Source: a virus
Length of the DNA stretch: 64,000 bases
Virus record (IMG/VR): IMGVR_UViG_3300036766_000988
Coordinates: 186,001 to 250,000 of that record
Reading direction: 5' to 3' (one strand)
Positions 1,693-30,564 of the stretch are shown piece by piece (the first letter of the stretch is position 1; every line of letters begins with the position of its first letter). The notes beneath the pieces were generated by a model. It was not told the origin of the DNA, did no database searches, and saw only the letters and a list, made by a program, of their open reading frames with translations. The position numbers were made by a program, and so were the translations under genes.

Positions 1693-3219
1693 TTACCCCC
1701 GTCCTGGCCAGGTACGCTCGAACTCCCGACGCCATTCGTCTGGCATGAGTACCCTGAGATCTGCATCTTGGTTTGGATCCGAGGTGAAGATCACCTGGGT
1801 CGGCTGATTGCTTCGTCCCCGAGCCTTCTCCAACGGGACGGTCTTGTGGTCAAGTTCTGTGAGCGCTTCGACATCACTGGACCCGAGAGAACCAATGCCG
1901 TCGGGGCGCAAACCCCGTCCAACGGGCTTCGGAGGCTGAACCGGTGCAGCCGTTACCACGGGGGGAGTAGCAGGAGCAGAGGCCACAGGAGCAGTTTGCA
2001 CGACGGGGCCCGTAGAAGTCCCCCCAGGGGCGGTCGTGACCCCTTCCGTCGGAGCTGGGCCGGATACCATGGGTCCAGCGGGTTCGCTTGTCACCACGGC
2101 TTCAGAAGGCGGCCCAGACACGATTGTCTGGGCCGGAGGCGACATGGGGCCTGCCACCTGGATGATCACGGAAGAGGCCTGGGGACTAGGAATACCGCCA
2201 GCGAGATTCAAGACATCGCAGATGAGGCTCACTTTGGTCGCATATCGAGTTCGCAGGAAGTATTCCGCGAGCTTGATGCACCCGACACCGTAGCGTTCCC
2301 AAAGTTGCTGTCCGAGAGCCCGGTCGACGTAGACGAACTCCGCGAACATGCCGTTGGCGAGTCGAAAGCTGTTCATGGCAGCTTCGGCCAACCCCGCCGA
2401 CACTTCCTCGGCACTCACCCGCTCGATAGCCTGTTCAATGAGGCTAATGGCTCGCTTGGAATCCCCCAGTGCGAGTAGGATTTCGTAGTAGGTCGCCACG
2501 ACATTGAGGTGCAGGTACTCCCGCACGCTCTTGAGGGTGACGTCTCCTGCTTGCGCGATCATCTCCAGCCGGTTGACCACATCACGCACGTGGCCGCCCG
2601 AGTAGTCGATGACCGTCAAGACAGCATCGTCTTCGTGGTAGACTTCCTCGGCGTTGAGGATCTTCTTCATCCGCACCAGCACGTCTTCTCGTGTGATCTT
2701 GCGGATTGCGTATTCCTCGCACCTGGAACGAATCGGGCCTCGGATCTTCTCCGGCTCTGTCGTACAGAAGATCCCCACCATCTTCTTGTCTTCGAGGGGC
2801 TTGAGCAAGACGTCTTGCGCGTCTTTGGACATCCTGTGCGCTTCGTCGAAGACGTAGACTCGCTTCGGTGCGTTGAAGACCGCGAAAGGTAGGTCGTCCA
2901 CGATGGCGCGAACGTGCTCTATGGTCCCTCGGCTAGCGGCGTCCTGTTCGACGTACGCTCCGGAGGTCTCGGCAAGGACGTCGCGACAGTTCTCACACTC
3001 GTTGCAAGGTTCGGGGTTGGCCTTGTTGAGATTCATGCAGAGCATCGCTCGTGCAAGGATCCTGGCAAGGGTTGTCTTCCCTTGCCCATGCCCACCTGAG
3101 AACACGTAGTTCGTGTCCAAAGCGGTATCCTTCGCGAGACGTGCCTTGAGTAGAAGGACGGCGCCCTCCTGCCCAAGCACGTCTCCGAAGGTCATAGGCC
3201 TATATTTGGTGTCCCACAC
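1693..3219 (-). CDS. dnaX: DNA polymerase III gamma/tau clamp-loader subunit
   Basis: AAA+ ATPase that opens and loads the sliding clamp. Seen: N-terminal WDTKYRP, Walker A GGHGQGKTT near residue 45, a Cys-rich zinc module (CNECENC), Walker B region VYVFDEAH, and the SRC arginine-finger motif (IRSRC). The C-terminal third is a Pro/Ala/Thr-rich linker and acidic tail. The start is GTG 3219, with GGAGG about 7 bases upstream and conserved residues beginning at once; longer frames add unconserved sequence. 508 residues fits a gamma/tau protein. I saw no obvious slippery site for a gamma frameshift. It follows the preceding gene by 2 bases and sits in a replisome cluster with the primase, clamp, delta and delta-prime genes. 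Confidence 0.93.
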   Translation of the reverse strand: MWDTKYRPMTFGDVLGQEGAVLLLKARLAKDTALDTNYVFSGGHGQGKTTLARILARAMLCMNLNKANPEPCNECENCRDVLAETSGAYVEQDAASRGTIEHVRAIVDDLPFAVFNAPKRVYVFDEAHRMSKDAQDVLLKPLEDKKMVGIFCTTEPEKIRGPIRSRCEEYAIRKITREDVLVRMKKILNAEEVYHEDDAVLTVIDYSGGHVRDVVNRLEMIAQAGDVTLKSVREYLHLNVVATYYEILLALGDSKRAISLIEQAIERVSAEEVSAGLAEAAMNSFRLANGMFAEFVYVDRALGQQLWERYGVGCIKLAEYFLRTRYATKVSLICDVLNLAGGIPSPQASSVIIQVAGPMSPPAQTIVSGPPSEAVVTSEPAGPMVSGPAPTEGVTTAPGGTSTGPVVQTAPVASAPATPPVVTAAPVQPPKPVGRGLRPDGIGSLGSSDVEALTELDHKTVPLEKARGRSNQPTQVIFTSDPNQDADLRVLMPDEWRREFERTWPGRG

Positions 3220-3221
3220 GA

Positions 3222-3635
3222 TTAGGCCTCCGAGCGCCGCTGCTTTATTTCGTAGAAAGTACGTGCATCGTCCGTGTCTTTCCACTCTTGGTCAGGGATG
3301 CACCGGATCCAGGAGCTGAAGAACTCTCCGGCTTCTACGAGGAGCTTGTCTCCCGCGCACTCGATTTCGACCAGACCGGGATAGCCACGGATGTTCTCGT
3401 TGACGGAGCTGAATCCGCCTCTTTCCCGAGCTGCCAAGATCTCCGTCACATAAGACACGGTGCCCGGTTGACAGAACTTGATGATCCGTGGGTGCTTGGA
3501 GGCCTCCACGTTCTCTTGTTCGGTAGGCGGCCGGACCCGAACCCACAGGTTTCCCTTCTTCATCGACGAGCGTCGAGAATTGTGGGCCTGTACGAACTTG
3601 CGGACATCCTCCGCAAAAGCGTGTTCAGGAGGCAC
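3222..3635 (-). CDS. hypothetical protein between metallopeptidase-like gene and dnaX
   Basis: I do not recognise this 137-residue protein. It has a basic middle (KGNLWVRVRPP) and otherwise a mixed alpha/beta composition, with no signal peptide or membrane segment. The start is a GTG at 3635 without a clear Shine-Dalgarno. It ends 2 bases before the dnaX start, so the two are probably cotranscribed and translationally coupled. Confidence 0.6.
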   Translation of the reverse strand: MPPEHAFAEDVRKFVQAHNSRRSSMKKGNLWVRVRPPTEQENVEASKHPRIIKFCQPGTVSYVTEILAARERGGFSSVNENIRGYPGLVEIECAGDKLLVEAGEFFSSWIRCIPDQEWKDTDDARTFYEIKQRRSEA

Positions 3636-21277: not shown

Positions 21278-23584
21278 TCAGACGATGCTACAGGCCCCTC
21301 CGGCACACGCCACCTCGCTCTTGAGGTCGGTGTCGTCGGTGTCCTCCAACATCGTCGTGTAATCAACAGGCTGGTAGTCTTCGAGGATGGCGTTCCATCG
21401 AGCCTCGTCGACCGGGGTGACCACCGCTTCGTTGGGCGCGAAGGCGTAGTCTTTGTCTCCTGTGCTGGCGAGAAGCGAGACCCCTGTGAAGAACTCCCGG
21501 TTCTCCCAAAGGTAGTCCGCCACCTTGTCCCACTCTTCGGGCCGCACCGTCACGGTGTTGGAGACGTTGTGGCTGAGGCCTGGCGAGTACTGGCTGTCTG
21601 CGGTGCCTGCAAGCACCCAGTTCTCTTGTGTGGACTTCACCATATCGAGGAACGGGATGGCTGTGATGTCGTCCTTGATGGTTGCTCCCGGAGGAGCTTC
21701 GACCGGAAACTCGATCACGTACTTCCCATCCGGCTTGCGGACGCACATGTGGGGGTTGACCACCTTGAAGGCCTGGAAGACCTGCTCCAATTCATCCGCC
21801 GTCACACGACGGATGTACCGACGAGCATGGTGAGCGTGGTGTCCCGAGCCGACGCAGCCGAGTTCGAGAGACGTGGTCCCTGATGGCTTTACACAGGTGG
21901 TGCGAGCCGCAGGCTTGACCCCGATACGCGCTGCGTATTCGGCATTCCACTGCTTGATCAACCCAGCAACCTCTCGCTGGTACTCCGGGTTGCAGGCGAT
22001 GGCGGGAGCATCGAGCATCCCTGTCATACCGATCCCCAAGAGAGCCTCACGTTCGGCGATTGTCTCTGAGATCGCTCCGAGGTAGGGCATCTTCGTGTAC
22101 CCCGCTTGGAGCGTACCGATGATCGCTGCTGCCCTGGCTGCCTCTTTGAAGTCCTGTAGGGACGTCAGTTTGGCTGCGTTGATCTCACAGAGGTTGCAGA
22201 AGGCCCAACCCGTGTAAGTCTGACCGACCGCTGTCTCGACGCCTTTCGCCGCGAGTTTCGCCTGAGCTTCGGCGTCGATTTCGAGCTTGGGGTTCAAGCC
22301 AATCTCACAGCACGGGTTCGTGCCGTAGTCGTAGTCGTTCGTGAAGTAGAACCCAGGCTCTCCCCACTGACGAGTCATTCCGAAGATGCGCTTGAACTGC
22401 TTTTTCTTCACCTCGTCCCGTTTGAGGACGACGCTGTTGTTGGAGTTCGCCAGCCAGGGCTCTGTGGAATACCAGTTCCCTGTCTTGAGGTGCATCATCT
22501 CGCTGTCATCGAGCGAGAAGAGGCAGATCATGGCCGACCGACGAATGCCCCCCGAAAGGACGGCATCGGCTGCATGACAGAGGATTCGGTGGCACTCGAC
22601 CGGGCGGAGCTTACGCCCCATGGCGGCATTCAGAACGCCTCGGATGCGTTCCAAAGAGTCCTTGAGCTTGAGGTGCCCAGGAGCCCGCCCCCCCGACGTA
22701 CGGAGGGGCGTGCCTGCATCCCGGATTTGGTGGAAGGCGAACTCCAAGTTCACACCATCGAGAAAGCTCTGGACCAGCGCCTTGAGGGCGTCTGCCCACC
22801 CCTCGATGGTATCCTCGACGACGTGATGGCGAACCTTCTTCACGTCTACGTAGGAGATCGACGGAAGCTTCTCGATGTGGTCGAACTGAACCGAATACCC
22901 CACGCCGCAACCCGATAGGAGCAGGTAGAGAGCCTCCGAGAAGATTTCGGGACGATCGACGAGTGAAAACGAGCAGTTGTAGATGCGGTTGTTGTTGGCG
23001 AGAATGGCCTTGCCACCGAACTGCATGGATCGCATGGACGGTAGAACGCGCTTGTCTCGTACGAGATCGAAGGCCCAACGGATCTCCTCTTCCATCTCGG
23101 GATACACGTCGAGGTGCATCCCCTCGATGCGGGCGACGGTCTCGGCGAAGACCTCGCGACGCTTCTTGGCGGGTAGGTAGCGGGCGTACTTCCCCGCGTG
23201 GATGTAATCGGAGATGGCCTTGGGATCAGGCGACTTCGGAGTACGCGCTTGACGAGCCTCTGTCCGTTGATGCCGATATAGAATGAACGCCTTGGCAACC
23301 CCAAACTGGCTGTGTCGCATGAGGGCGGTCTCGACGGCATCCTGCACGTTCTCGACGCAGACGGTCTCTTCCGTCAGAGCGTCCATCACCGTGTTGATGA
23401 CCTTGTTCAGAGCCCGTTCATCGACGAGACCCTTCGACTCGATCCATGCCCGACTGAGGGCTCTACGGATCTTGGACACATCGAAGAGTTGAAGTGTCTG
23501 CCCATCCCGTTTACGAATGTGCTGTAGGGTTCTCACTACCGTGAGGTTCGGTTCGAGAGCACTCTGTACGCTAGGGGCCATCAT
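21278..23584 (-). CDS. nrdJ: class II (adenosylcobalamin-dependent) ribonucleotide reductase
   Basis: 768 residues. An N-terminal ATP-cone (HIRKRDGQTLQLFDVSKI) is followed by the 10-stranded barrel: GGKAILANNNRIYNCSF, GCGVGYSVQF, active-site region NPCCEIGL, NLCEIN and VKPSGTTSLE. The C-terminus has the redox Cys pair in CAGGACS. No small radical-carrying subunit (NrdB) is nearby, and the finger-loop sequence fits the B12-dependent class. It makes deoxyribonucleotides for phage DNA synthesis and requires host cobalamin. Confidence 0.9.
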   Translation of the reverse strand: MMAPSVQSALEPNLTVVRTLQHIRKRDGQTLQLFDVSKIRRALSRAWIESKGLVDERALNKVINTVMDALTEETVCVENVQDAVETALMRHSQFGVAKAFILYRHQRTEARQARTPKSPDPKAISDYIHAGKYARYLPAKKRREVFAETVARIEGMHLDVYPEMEEEIRWAFDLVRDKRVLPSMRSMQFGGKAILANNNRIYNCSFSLVDRPEIFSEALYLLLSGCGVGYSVQFDHIEKLPSISYVDVKKVRHHVVEDTIEGWADALKALVQSFLDGVNLEFAFHQIRDAGTPLRTSGGRAPGHLKLKDSLERIRGVLNAAMGRKLRPVECHRILCHAADAVLSGGIRRSAMICLFSLDDSEMMHLKTGNWYSTEPWLANSNNSVVLKRDEVKKKQFKRIFGMTRQWGEPGFYFTNDYDYGTNPCCEIGLNPKLEIDAEAQAKLAAKGVETAVGQTYTGWAFCNLCEINAAKLTSLQDFKEAARAAAIIGTLQAGYTKMPYLGAISETIAEREALLGIGMTGMLDAPAIACNPEYQREVAGLIKQWNAEYAARIGVKPAARTTCVKPSGTTSLELGCVGSGHHAHHARRYIRRVTADELEQVFQAFKVVNPHMCVRKPDGKYVIEFPVEAPPGATIKDDITAIPFLDMVKSTQENWVLAGTADSQYSPGLSHNVSNTVTVRPEEWDKVADYLWENREFFTGVSLLASTGDKDYAFAPNEAVVTPVDEARWNAILEDYQPVDYTTMLEDTDDTDLKSEVACAGGACSIV

Positions 23585-25968: not shown

Positions 25969-26379
25969 TTACAGGTTCGATGTGGGGTACGAATCGGGGA
26001 ACAACGCACGCAGTTGCCCGTAGACGCGGGAGAAGAACACCGGATCCCACTGGTCGATCGTAGAAAGATCGGGGTTGATGAGCGGATTTCCCGTGTTGAC
26101 GAAGTGCGGGGGCGGGTATTGCCTCGGATCGAACGTCCCATCCTGGATGAAGGGTAGGATTTTCGCGAAATCCGTGGCCAGTACTAGACACACGAACCCC
26201 TTCGCCTTGAAACGGTAGTAGGCGACTTGCTTCGCGAAAACCCGTTCGGCCTGTACGATCTTGCGTTCGTAGCCGACGATCGCCGCCGCTACGTCGTGTA
26301 GGTCTTCTTGCCGAAGACGGGACAGACGTCGACCGTCAACGAATTGCAGCCGGGCGTCCACGATGAGGAGGCTCGACAA
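25969..26379 (-). CDS. hypothetical protein
   Basis: Up to 136 residues, unrecognised, Pro/Phe-rich towards the C-terminus (PRQYPPPHFVNTGNPLINPD). The upstream limit is a TTG at 26379 without Shine-Dalgarno. A GTG at 26361 is an alternative, so the start is uncertain. It is the first gene after the structured noncoding region. Confidence 0.5.
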   Translation of the reverse strand: MSSLLIVDARLQFVDGRRLSRLRQEDLHDVAAAIVGYERKIVQAERVFAKQVAYYRFKAKGFVCLVLATDFAKILPFIQDGTFDPRQYPPPHFVNTGNPLINPDLSTIDQWDPVFFSRVYGQLRALFPDSYPTSNL

Positions 26380-26383
26380 GTAG

Positions 26384-26480
26384 AAAAAACTCAGCCCCTC
26401 AAATCGCCCGCCCCGCCCCTTCGGTCCAGCGCTGTTCAGACGCTTAGACCGTCAGTTGAACACAGGAATCGGGCGGTTTG
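26384..26480 (-). terminator. possible terminator after the tRNA-like domain
   Basis: Read on the minus strand, an arm at 26480-26470 pairs with 26410-26400 over 10 of 11 positions. Ten bases later comes a run of six T (26389-26384). The 59-base loop is long, so this is only a tentative rho-independent terminator. Confidence 0.3.
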
Positions 26481-26496
26481 AAGGGCCGAGAAACTT

Positions 26497-26576
26497 TGGT
26501 GGACACGATCGGGGTTGAACCGACAACCAGGGCTTTGGAGGCCCCAGCTCTACCCGTCTTGACAAGCGGCGCCGCC
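26497..26576 (-). tRNA. tRNA-Trp-like domain, 5' side degenerate
   Basis: The 3' part is textbook tRNA. It has GGTAGAGC of a D-arm, an anticodon arm with a 5-bp stem and loop CTCCAAA (anticodon CCA, U33 and A37 present), a T-arm with loop TTCAACC and a 5-bp stem, then CGTGTCC, discriminator A and an encoded CCA. The 5' side does not fit. The expected GGACACG strand is replaced by GGCGGCG (two mismatches and one wobble), U8 is missing and the D-loop is 13 bases. A GC-rich inverted repeat (26558-26563 with 26578-26583) covers that side. It may be a decayed tRNA, a tRNA-like end of a longer RNA, or the tRNA part of an attachment site. Confidence 0.5.
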
Positions 26577-26897
26577 GGTCAAGACCTTGAGTCTTACGTG
26601 CCCGTGAACTGAGAAGCTCGTTCGCTCCCGTGGAGGGGCTGGCTACTCTCCAGCGTGTCGCAGGCGTATACGTTCATGACGCGCATCGTGTCTGCGAGCA
26701 AGAGGGTTGATCTCACGGCCGTAAGACCAACACCCTGGCTTTCGGCAGGCCCTCGCGGGCTCACCATCAAGCTGCCCTCCCGGCAACGAACGAACTGAAC
26801 CACAAGCAGGCGTAGATATGACCCACGCACTTCCAGCCTACACGGCGACTCCCTGGCAAGGGGGCGGTCTCCTTGATCCTACTGCTTGTGGTTCGTA
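26577..26897 (-). ncRNA. candidate structured noncoding RNA preceding the tRNA-like domain
   Basis: About 320 bases without a convincing protein gene, just downstream of a promoter element. Perfect helices can be drawn: a 13-bp stem (26882-26894 with 26797-26809) enclosing a multibranch region, and GGCAG/CTGCC (26744-26748 with 26772-26776) enclosing a GCCC-GCGA-GGGC hairpin with a GNRA loop at 26749-26760. A bulged hairpin of about 14 bp lies at 26703-26736. Two further 5-bp stems follow towards the tRNA-like part. A 78-residue frame (26594-26830) crosses it but has no Shine-Dalgarno and no recognisable fold. No known RNA family was matched. Confidence 0.5.
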
Positions 26898-26903
26898 GTT
26901 TTA

Positions 26904-26929
26904 CTACACCGCTCGACCCCCAAGTTCAA
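26904..26929 (-). promoter_or_regulatory. bipartite ECF-like promoter element for the structured RNA
   Basis: Minus strand: TTGAAC, 13 bases, GGTGTAG. The first half overlaps the stop codon of the HNH gene at 26926. There is no protein gene within the next 500 bases downstream, so it most likely drives the noncoding RNA. Confidence 0.62.
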
Positions 26930-27231
26930 CCTTGCTTCGATACCAAGACCGCTTTCTCGTATGAGGAGCCGATCTTCGCGTACAGCTCGGCCGGAGAGAA
27001 CCCTGGCTCAGGGACCTCCCCTCGATGGGACGCTTCGGCCTTTTGGTGGCAGGGGTCACAGAGCGAGATGCCGTTCTCGGCGACGTAGCCACCGTTGGGC
27101 ATCTCAGTCCGATCGGTGATGTGGTGAGCATCAAGCGGTTGAGGAGCTGAGCAAACGCGACAGGCGTTCCGGTCCCTCTTGAAGACGGCCTCCCTAAACG
27201 CCTGTCGCACCTGCTTCTTGGTGTCACCCAC
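26926..27231 (-). CDS. HNH endonuclease
   Basis: 101 residues. Basic N-terminal helix, then CRVC, LDAHHIT (the catalytic His pair), NGISLCDPCH (Asn and the second zinc knuckle). It is a nicking or double-strand nuclease of the HNH superfamily, possibly a free-standing homing enzyme next to the RNA ligase. GTG 27231 overlaps the ligase end by 8 bases and has GAAGG upstream. Longer frames lie inside the ligase gene. Confidence 0.85.
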   Translation of the reverse strand: MGDTKKQVRQAFREAVFKRDRNACRVCSAPQPLDAHHITDRTEMPNGGYVAENGISLCDPCHQKAEASHRGEVPEPGFSPAELYAKIGSSYEKAVLVSKQG

Positions 27232-27886
27232 CTTCGATCCTGTTCCGAACGGGCTTTCGGTCCTTCCAGTGCTCGTCCGTTTGAACGTGATCTTCGCGAA
27301 CCCACTTGGCCACGTAGTGGGGGAACATGGAGTCGGGCATGTCGCACTGGCGTCGAACCACCACCCCTTCACGAGTTTCGCCAACGTGGCTTGCCCCGAG
27401 GGCATGCCGCTCGACGAGCTTCTGAAGCTCCTTGTCGCTGTAAACGATCACGTTCCGTTCCAGAACGGGTACCGTGGGACACCCCACCAGATCGGCCCAC
27501 TGCTCGACCTCGGCCCAGCTAGCCCACAGGCACTTTCGGAGGTCGCAGACCCCAAAGACCATGAAGTAGGCGGGCAGCCGGTTGTAGCTGATTGTGTGCT
27601 GAGCCCAGAGCCACTCGCCGAAGATCTGCACCCCAGCCGGGATGCGGCTCCTGATGCACGCGTGCATGGCCTTGAGAGCGCTGAAACTTTGGTGGCGGGG
27701 TCGGCCAGCATGGGTGCGGGCGAAGACCGCCTCGTTCTCCAGGCAGACGTTCGAGCCGTCCATCTTCTCGGTCACCATGATGGGGGAGAAGAGCAGGAAG
27801 TCCGTGGACTCGATTCGCTTGTCATCCTTCGTGCAGCCGGGGCTGAACAAGAAATGACCTGTTCGGGGGTACTTGGGGGAGTCCAT
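27224..27886 (-). CDS. RNA ligase, Rnl2-like
   Basis: 220 residues with covalent nucleotidyltransferase motifs: motif I TEKMDGSNVCL (nucleotidyl Lys), motif III region FGEWLWAQHTI, motif IV EGVVVRR and motif V VAKWVR. It joins RNA 3'-OH and 5'-phosphate ends, as in repair of nicked RNA. ATG 27886 has GAGG upstream and a bipartite promoter element 19 bases before the start. With RtcB at 31848 the window holds two chemically distinct RNA ligases. Confidence 0.87.
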   Translation of the reverse strand: MDSPKYPRTGHFLFSPGCTKDDKRIESTDFLLFSPIMVTEKMDGSNVCLENEAVFARTHAGRPRHQSFSALKAMHACIRSRIPAGVQIFGEWLWAQHTISYNRLPAYFMVFGVCDLRKCLWASWAEVEQWADLVGCPTVPVLERNVIVYSDKELQKLVERHALGASHVGETREGVVVRRQCDMPDSMFPHYVAKWVREDHVQTDEHWKDRKPVRNRIEGG

Positions 27887-30018: not shown

Positions 30019-30564
30019 TCAGCCGACTTTGGCTCCGTCGTCCCCAGAGCAGTATAGGAGAACCGTACCCGAGGGCCCCGACGTGGCGAGGATCATCCCT
30101 TCCGACTCGATGCCCATGATCTTGCGAGCTGCCAGGTTGAGAACCGCGACAACCTTCACGCCGATGAGAGCTTCGGGTGCGTAGGACTTCGCCAGCGTTG
30201 CGACGATTGGACGATTCCCCCCAGGCCCAAACGAGACCAACAGCTTCAGGAGCTTGTCGCTCTTCGGGATCCTCTCGGCTGTCTTGATGGTACCCACCCG
30301 CATGTCGACCTTGAGGAAGTCATCGAAGGAGATCTTTCCTCCCGAGAGAATCCTCGACATGGCTTCTGGAGACAGCCCTTGAGGATTGCTGACACCCTTC
30401 ATCTCCGCAGGCTTCGCTGCTCCCGAATCCGCCATCTCCTGCATGGTGGGCCGGTCGGGGCTCTCGAAAGCTTTCTTGTAGGCCTCCCGTGTCCCCTCGG
30501 TGATTTCCACCTTGAGACTCGAAATGGGGACTTCTGCGTGTAGGTCGATCTTGTGGTCAGTCAT
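30019..30564 (-). CDS. tRNA-binding OB-fold protein (EMAPII / MetRS C-domain / CsaA type)
   Basis: 181 residues. An N-terminal extension with a Pro/Ala-rich stretch precedes residues 75-175, a tRNA-binding domain: FDDFLKVDMRVGTIKTAER, SDKLLKLLVSFG, RPIVATLAKSY, VVAVLNLAARKIMGIESEGM. The fold binds the tRNA elbow and acts as a docking module or chaperone. Together with two RNA ligases it suggests tRNA maintenance. ATG 30564. Confidence 0.85.
   Translation of the reverse strand: MTDHKIDLHAEVPISSLKVEITEGTREAYKKAFESPDRPTMQEMADSGAAKPAEMKGVSNPQGLSPEAMSRILSGGKISFDDFLKVDMRVGTIKTAERIPKSDKLLKLLVSFGPGGNRPIVATLAKSYAPEALIGVKVVAVLNLAARKIMGIESEGMILATSGPSGTVLLYCSGDDGAKVG

Follow-up and report, generated by a model that had tools for sequence, protein, structure and literature searches.

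A tRNA-like RNA family with a D-loop hairpin and a predicted alanine-type acceptor in huge phages

Huge phages carry dozens of tRNAs, the purpose of which is debated, and pseudo-tRNAs are known to have uses outside decoding, such as in cell-wall synthesis. In bacteria, the identity determinants have been tabulated for alanine (A73, G2-C71, G3.U70, G4-C69 and G20) and for tryptophan (G73, A1-U72, G3-C70 and others; table in PMC9976931). One bacterial pseudo-tRNA with such a use, tRNA-Other of Bacillus cereus, is poorly lysylated in vitro (PMC3399842). Here we describe a tRNA-like RNA from the window, a 64,000-nucleotide stretch at positions 186,001 to 250,000 of IMG/VR record IMGVR_UViG_3300036766_000988, the whole record being a 252,183-bp virus (G000 below).

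The minus-strand locus and its cloverleaf

Between the end of an HNH endonuclease gene at 26926 and the start of a 136-residue gene near 26379, about 540 bp on the minus strand contain no convincing gene, as an initial annotation of this DNA had noted. Pfam gives no match for the 78-residue frame at 26594-26830, which scores 0.00 bits per codon in codon usage, versus 0.2-0.3 in most neighbouring genes, although two real neighbouring genes score low as well; being without a family and poor in codon score, it was rejected as a gene. The stretch instead falls into four folded units, and the folds of three of them (domain B, the cloverleaf and the terminator) bear out the proposal of a structured non-coding RNA on the minus strand. 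The features of the locus, all on the minus strand, are as follows.

26384-26490, minus strand: intrinsic terminator, a long hairpin (26490-26390) followed by TTTTTT (26389-26384)
26497-26603, minus strand: tRNA-like RNA of 107 nt, a complete cloverleaf, with a three-member cmsearch family and covariation
26603-26597 (GGGCACG) with 26507-26501 (CGTGTCC), then ACCA at 26500-26497, minus strand: acceptor of 7 bp, with CCA encoded
26508-26524, minus strand: T-arm, GTCGG-TTCAACC-CCGAT, three of its five pairs changing on both sides among the copies
26529-26545, minus strand: anticodon arm, with loop CTCCAAA (CCA) in G000 and CGAAA in the homologues
26546-26594, minus strand: D-arm, stem AG(A)CTC (26594-26589) with GAGCT (26550-26546)
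26556-26585, minus strand: hairpin inserted in the D-loop, 8 bp, GTCTTGAC / GTCAAGAC, loop CGGCGGCGCCGCTT, core GGYGGCGCCGC
26615-26796, minus strand: domain B, multibranched, with a 12-bp closing helix, a GNRA hairpin and an 11-bp hairpin
26797-26894, minus strand: domain A, with a 13-bp closing helix (GAACCACAAGCAG/CTGCTTGTGGTTC) and a weakly defined interior
26926-27231, minus strand: HNH endonuclease gene, ending where the RNA region starts; a GTG start at 27231 is possible and is assumed here
27224-27886, minus strand: RNA ligase gene, upstream (PF09414, E 1e-27)

The HNH endonuclease matches PF01844 with 26.3 bits (longer frame 26929-27405). Farther upstream, beyond the RNA ligase and groEL genes, the minus strand at 30022-30564 of the window encodes a protein in which a tRNA-binding domain is recognised (PF01588, E 5e-21). 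The strong promoter that had been placed ahead of the RNA amounts to TTGAAC-17-TAGTAA, with four and three matches out of six; a promoter scan finds none, and the supposed -10 element sits inside a small hairpin, GTAGT-AAA-ACTAC. The promoter is weak and not convincing.

The proposed tRNA-like 3' domain with an encoded CCA is present as the cloverleaf at 26603-26497, which retains GGTA (26554-26551) for the contact between D-loop and T-loop. ARAGORN reports no tRNA in the window and so misses this RNA. With permissive settings, the Rfam tRNA model (RF00005) gives it 24 bits against a gathering cut-off of 29, and this match misplaces the 5' acceptor strand because of the insert.

Homologues, covariation and the inserted hairpin

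True relatives of the virus, on contigs of 24 to 529 kb, were retrieved with its RNR (21281-23584). Several of them keep the gene order groEL ... p136, two zinc-ribbon genes, DNA polymerase III delta', delta and RNR, which in the window is the order downstream of the RNA from the 136-residue gene at 26379 onwards. What lies between groEL and p136 varies among the relatives: the gap is without RNA in one (L170), holds other genes in a second (L017) and contains another GC-rich, structured-looking stretch in a third (L014). This last stretch (L014 5530-6110) spans about 580 nt with many hairpins and no clear gene; its folding z is -2.8, and it has no Rfam match and no similarity elsewhere. It was rejected as a counterpart of the RNA region, to which it has no sequence similarity. 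The RNR gene of the 529-kb relative (L017 10001-13228) carries an apparent intein, which adds about 300 residues between IYNC and CSFS.

This layout bears on whether the RNA could regulate the downstream replication genes as their leader or attenuator, sensing a tRNA or a synthetase in the manner of a T-box or a tRNA-like operator. Only a few bases do separate the terminator from the first downstream frame. However, relatives that keep the downstream gene order lack this RNA at this place, and the tRNA-like RNA is located elsewhere in the two other phages described below, which makes a leader function very unlikely.

A DNA search of the whole records of the relatives found a homologue of the cloverleaf in the 529-kb phage (G004, 122393-122503; 72% identity over 110 nt, E 7.6e-10), at a genomic place different from that in G000. 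The copy lies directly behind a short frame and no structured RNA precedes it, the 300 nt upstream having a z of +1.35. A covariance model (R1) was built from these two copies. When IMG/VR was searched with a pattern of D-loop core plus T-loop, 40 contigs matched, among which, besides G004, one (L255 3005-3111, from phage G023) scores 63 bits with R1, a model that did not contain it. A second pattern (acceptor plus T-loop, without the D-loop core) matches three contigs of 2.9 million, G023 included, and the two patterns cover largely different parts of the RNA. Since the G023 copy was first picked by its loop core, the conservation of its loop is partly due to selection; the core is also common to G000 and G004, neither of which was selected for it. 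The G023 copy belongs to the tRNA array of a 232,937-bp phage, where it is flanked by tRNA-Gln and tRNA-Thr; a tmRNA occurs farther along. Like its neighbours in the array it lacks an encoded CCA (GTGTCC-A-CAA), which G000 and G004 both have, and no RNR relative is detectable in this phage.

Scored with the three-sequence covariance model, the members reach 99-114 bits; nothing else in 38 records exceeds 45 bits, the most that ordinary tRNAs reach with the family models. Homologues, covariation and separation from ordinary tRNAs are all found for a D-loop-hairpin tRNA-like family, with three members. Other searches added none. A phage DNA collection, searched with the whole region and the two homologues, returned only short pieces of ordinary tRNAs; the 136-residue neighbour led to no close relatives; and the RNA ligase led to one relative, in a different neighbourhood where no such RNA occurs. 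A first broad pattern for alanine-type tRNAs with long inserts gave, among the matches listed, ordinary tRNAs and chance hits. Three matches in bacterial and archaeal genomes are archaeal tRNA-like genes with inserts, two with an alanine anticodon, and were not taken as members. An odd tRNA-like sequence in another phage tRNA array (L159 4323-4421, G010) has the same alanine-type acceptor, GGGCACG/CGTGTCC, a long D-stem and a long middle part; it was not counted, as it has neither the D-loop hairpin nor GGTA and its 27.5 bits fall below ordinary tRNAs.

In a structure-guided alignment of the three copies, 95.9% of the cells are paired, a value reached by none of 500 shuffles, and controls in which the structure was slid along the alignment pair at about 40%. 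Twelve of 33 pairs change on both sides, including five of the eight in the inserted D-loop helix. The covariation rests on three sequences, one of them fitted to the model, and accordingly supports the fold strongly but its details weakly. The initial annotation had suggested a covariance check in related phages, and in these three copies the tRNA-like part covaries strongly; judged by sequence comparison, it is a conserved family kept by covariation. Shared by all members are an acceptor GGGCAC(G/T) with (C/A)GTGTCC, in which six of seven pairs (G3.U70 wobble included) and A73 are invariant; T8A9; a covarying D-stem (AGCTC/GAGCT, CGTTT/AAACG, GCTC/GAGC); a D-loop helix of 8-9 bp whose loop contains GGYGGCGCCGC, followed by GGTA; an anticodon-type arm, with the heptaloop CTCCAAA in G000 and a CGAAA pentaloop in G004 and G023; and a normal T-arm with TTCRA. 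The anatomy of the conserved unit, a 107-nt tRNA-like RNA of apparent alanine type with a hairpin in its D-loop, is well supported.

The inserted hairpin could be an intron, spliced out before the neighbouring RNA ligase seals the ends. Its removal would leave D-loops of ordinary length (AAGGGGTA, CATAAGGTA and AGATTTGGTA), the same acceptor pattern matched archaeal tRNA-Ala genes with D-loop inserts, and the ligase gene is near at hand. Yet the spliced product would still have no alanine anticodon, and two of the three would have no 7-nt anticodon loop with U33; the invariant loop would be odd for a discarded intron; and the G023 copy sits in a tRNA array where no ligase was recognised among the adjoining frames, viewed without a profile search. 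No bulge-helix-bulge is apparent, and the bulge-helix-bulge endonuclease is not known from bacterial hosts. We consider an intron quite improbable.

The structured domains upstream of the cloverleaf

Several elements that had been picked out from the sequence alone in the upstream part and at the 3' end are found by folding: the 13-bp closing helix (26894-26882 with 26809-26797), the GNRA hairpin (GCCC-GCGA-GGGC at 26760-26749), the long bulged hairpin (at about 26731-26706) and the possible terminator, a strong hairpin with z -5.55. Domain B has a z of about -5.2 to -5.4 against dinucleotide shuffles, a value that two of 400 windows of 192 nt, drawn at random from this genome, also reach, and most of its base pairs are predicted with a probability close to 1. 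In domain A only the closing helix stands out; the domain is no more stable than shuffles (z -0.9). Taken together as a 287-nt stretch, the two have a z of -3.3, which three of 20 control windows exceed or nearly match. Very stable folds also occur elsewhere in the genome: a fold at 2950-3290 of the window (minus strand), inside the dnaX-like gene, is the strongest of the random windows (z -8.2 to -8.5), and G000:C1:167332-167523 (plus strand; z -8.0) adjoins a transposase-like gene ending at 167374.

The region had been described as matching no known RNA family, and this agrees with Rfam 15, which gives nothing at gathering cut-offs; the permissive search of 26300-27000 yields the 24-bit tRNA match, and at E 10 there is no match to GOLLD, ROOL, OLE, raiA or HEARO, nor to group I or II introns, RNase P or tmRNA. 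DNA similarity over the whole region finds no homologue of domains A and B in the records of the relatives. A single-sequence model of domain B, which finds only itself and can miss distant relatives, detects none in 15 other records.

These results bear on the extent of the RNA, proposed initially as a single molecule of about 400 nt. Domains A and B and the tRNA-like end might act as one ornate RNA comparable to GOLLD: they are contiguous, with an 11-nt linker before the tRNA-like part, share one terminator and have a well-defined fold, and the GOLLD linker sometimes holds phage tRNAs (PMC12286853). Against a composite molecule stand the absence of the upstream domains from both homologues, which have the tRNA-like part alone, and the lack of domain B homologues and of large-RNA matches given above. 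In addition, tRNA 5' ends are standard RNase P sites, and a cut at the 5' end of the cloverleaf would separate it from what precedes. A composite RNA therefore seems unlikely to us. Domains A and B probably form a structured RNA of their own on a common transcript, or a cleavable leader; because both other copies stand alone, a separate upstream RNA is likelier than a private extension.

Acceptor identity, a proposed role and comparison with known systems

The RNA had been likened to tRNA-Trp. Its acceptor conflicts with the bacterial tryptophan determinants, having A73, G1-C72 and G3.U70; the anticodon is not conserved, CCA being private to G000; and G000 encodes elsewhere a normal tRNA-Trp(CCA) with A1-U72 and G73. 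As the CTCCAAA loop occurs in G000 only and CGAAA in both others, tryptophan is not a feature of the family, and we do not retain that identity. Three of the five alanine determinants (A73, G2-C71 and G3.U70) are present in all three copies, whereas G4-C69 and G20 are not (C4-G69; GGTA), and the NGC anticodon of alanine is absent from the loops (CTCCAAA, CGAAA, CGAAA). The tRNA-Ala genes of G000 itself have the same G3.U70 and A73. The acceptor thus fits alanine, not tryptophan, as far as such determinants can be read from sequence. AlaRS reads the acceptor, not the anticodon, and should therefore recognise this RNA. Among possible partner proteins, neither SmpB nor an AlaRS/AlaX-type domain was found in the three phage genomes.

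The loop of the G000 copy could be a working anticodon. CTCCAAA shows the U33/A37/A38 pattern of a functional anticodon loop, and the RF00005 alignment treats its CCA as the anticodon, so that an RNA charged with alanine (or tryptophan) might read UGG in this phage. However, the homologues have no anticodon, a standard tRNA-Trp(CCA) is already present, and the acceptor is at odds with bacterial TrpRS; inserting alanine at UGG would amount to miscoding. We regard a decoding role as highly improbable.

The reading that we prefer, and to which we attach an even chance, is that of a free-standing tRNA-like RNA that would be non-decoding, alanine-accepting and directed by its hairpin. It would be transcribed within a longer precursor, which here would include the structured 5' domains and in G023 probably the neighbouring tRNAs. 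RNase P would cut before G26603, and the 3' end would be finished by trimming or by CCA addition, the CCA presumably being added in G023. The RNA would then adopt the L-shape of a tRNA by way of GGTA and TTCRA and be charged with alanine by the host AlaRS. As the family keeps no anticodon, the RNA would have a task other than reading codons, perhaps that of a dedicated donor of alanyl groups or of a decoy that engages the translation machinery. Through its GGCGCC, which is invariant and self-complementary, the inserted hairpin may be a handle toward a partner or for the pairing of two copies; dimerisation through GGCGCC is something that we purely infer. A tentative extension is that huge phages possess a new class of such alanine-accepting RNAs, in which a D-loop hairpin directs the charged RNA away from codon reading.

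If so, part of the phage tRNA array would serve a non-decoding role, and more such RNAs may hide in these arrays, as both ARAGORN and the Rfam tRNA model miss this one. With a tmRNA and an RNase P RNA of its own, G000 also brings an RNA side of translation that is unusually complete. The tmRNA (G000:C1:67728-68080, minus strand; L006 7728-8080) is canonical, scores 123.8 bits, has the tag ANDNSTALPALLAA* and lies among more than 50 tRNA genes that form an array at about 62.9-88.5 kb of the record. The RNase P RNA is of bacterial class A (G000:C1:80398-80750, minus strand; L007 398-750; 263 bits) and is absent from nine other records searched. A lone tRNA with anticodon CTA (G000:C1:36908-36981, minus strand; L004 16908-16981), called Pyl by ARAGORN, is possibly an amber suppressor.

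Among known systems, bacterial tRNA-Ala shares with this RNA the 7-bp acceptor with G1-C72, G2-C71, G3.U70, A73 and CCA, the T-arm and the GGTA of the D-loop; the phage RNA differs in having no NGC anticodon, a hairpin of about 30 nt inserted in the D-loop and C4-G69, and in being missed by ARAGORN. The resemblance to tmRNA (RF00023) noted initially holds in outline, namely an alanine-type tRNA-like end, phage encoding, a structured RNA and a similar total length. The RNA is not, however, a tmRNA: both acceptor strands (26603-26597 and 26507-26501) lie within the last 107 nt, an anticodon arm (26545-26529) is present, neither a tag frame nor an Rfam match was found here, and G000 has its separate canonical tmRNA. 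GOLLD, ROOL and HEARO are likewise ornate phage RNAs, GOLLD and ROOL occurring near tRNA islands and GOLLD sometimes containing tRNAs, but the RNA described here is shorter, matches none of their covariance models and shares no homologues with them. Archaeal tRNAs with D-loop introns also have an insert in the D-loop of an alanine-type tRNA, although the two best examples keep the alanine anticodon (CGC) and score 35 bits, like ordinary tRNAs. The Bacillus cereus pseudo-tRNA tRNA-Other is cellular, part of its published account mentions no D-loop hairpin, and its CCA anticodon is not conserved in the phage family; with it, the phage RNA would share a place outside translation and, in the G000 copy, that same CCA (PMC3399842).
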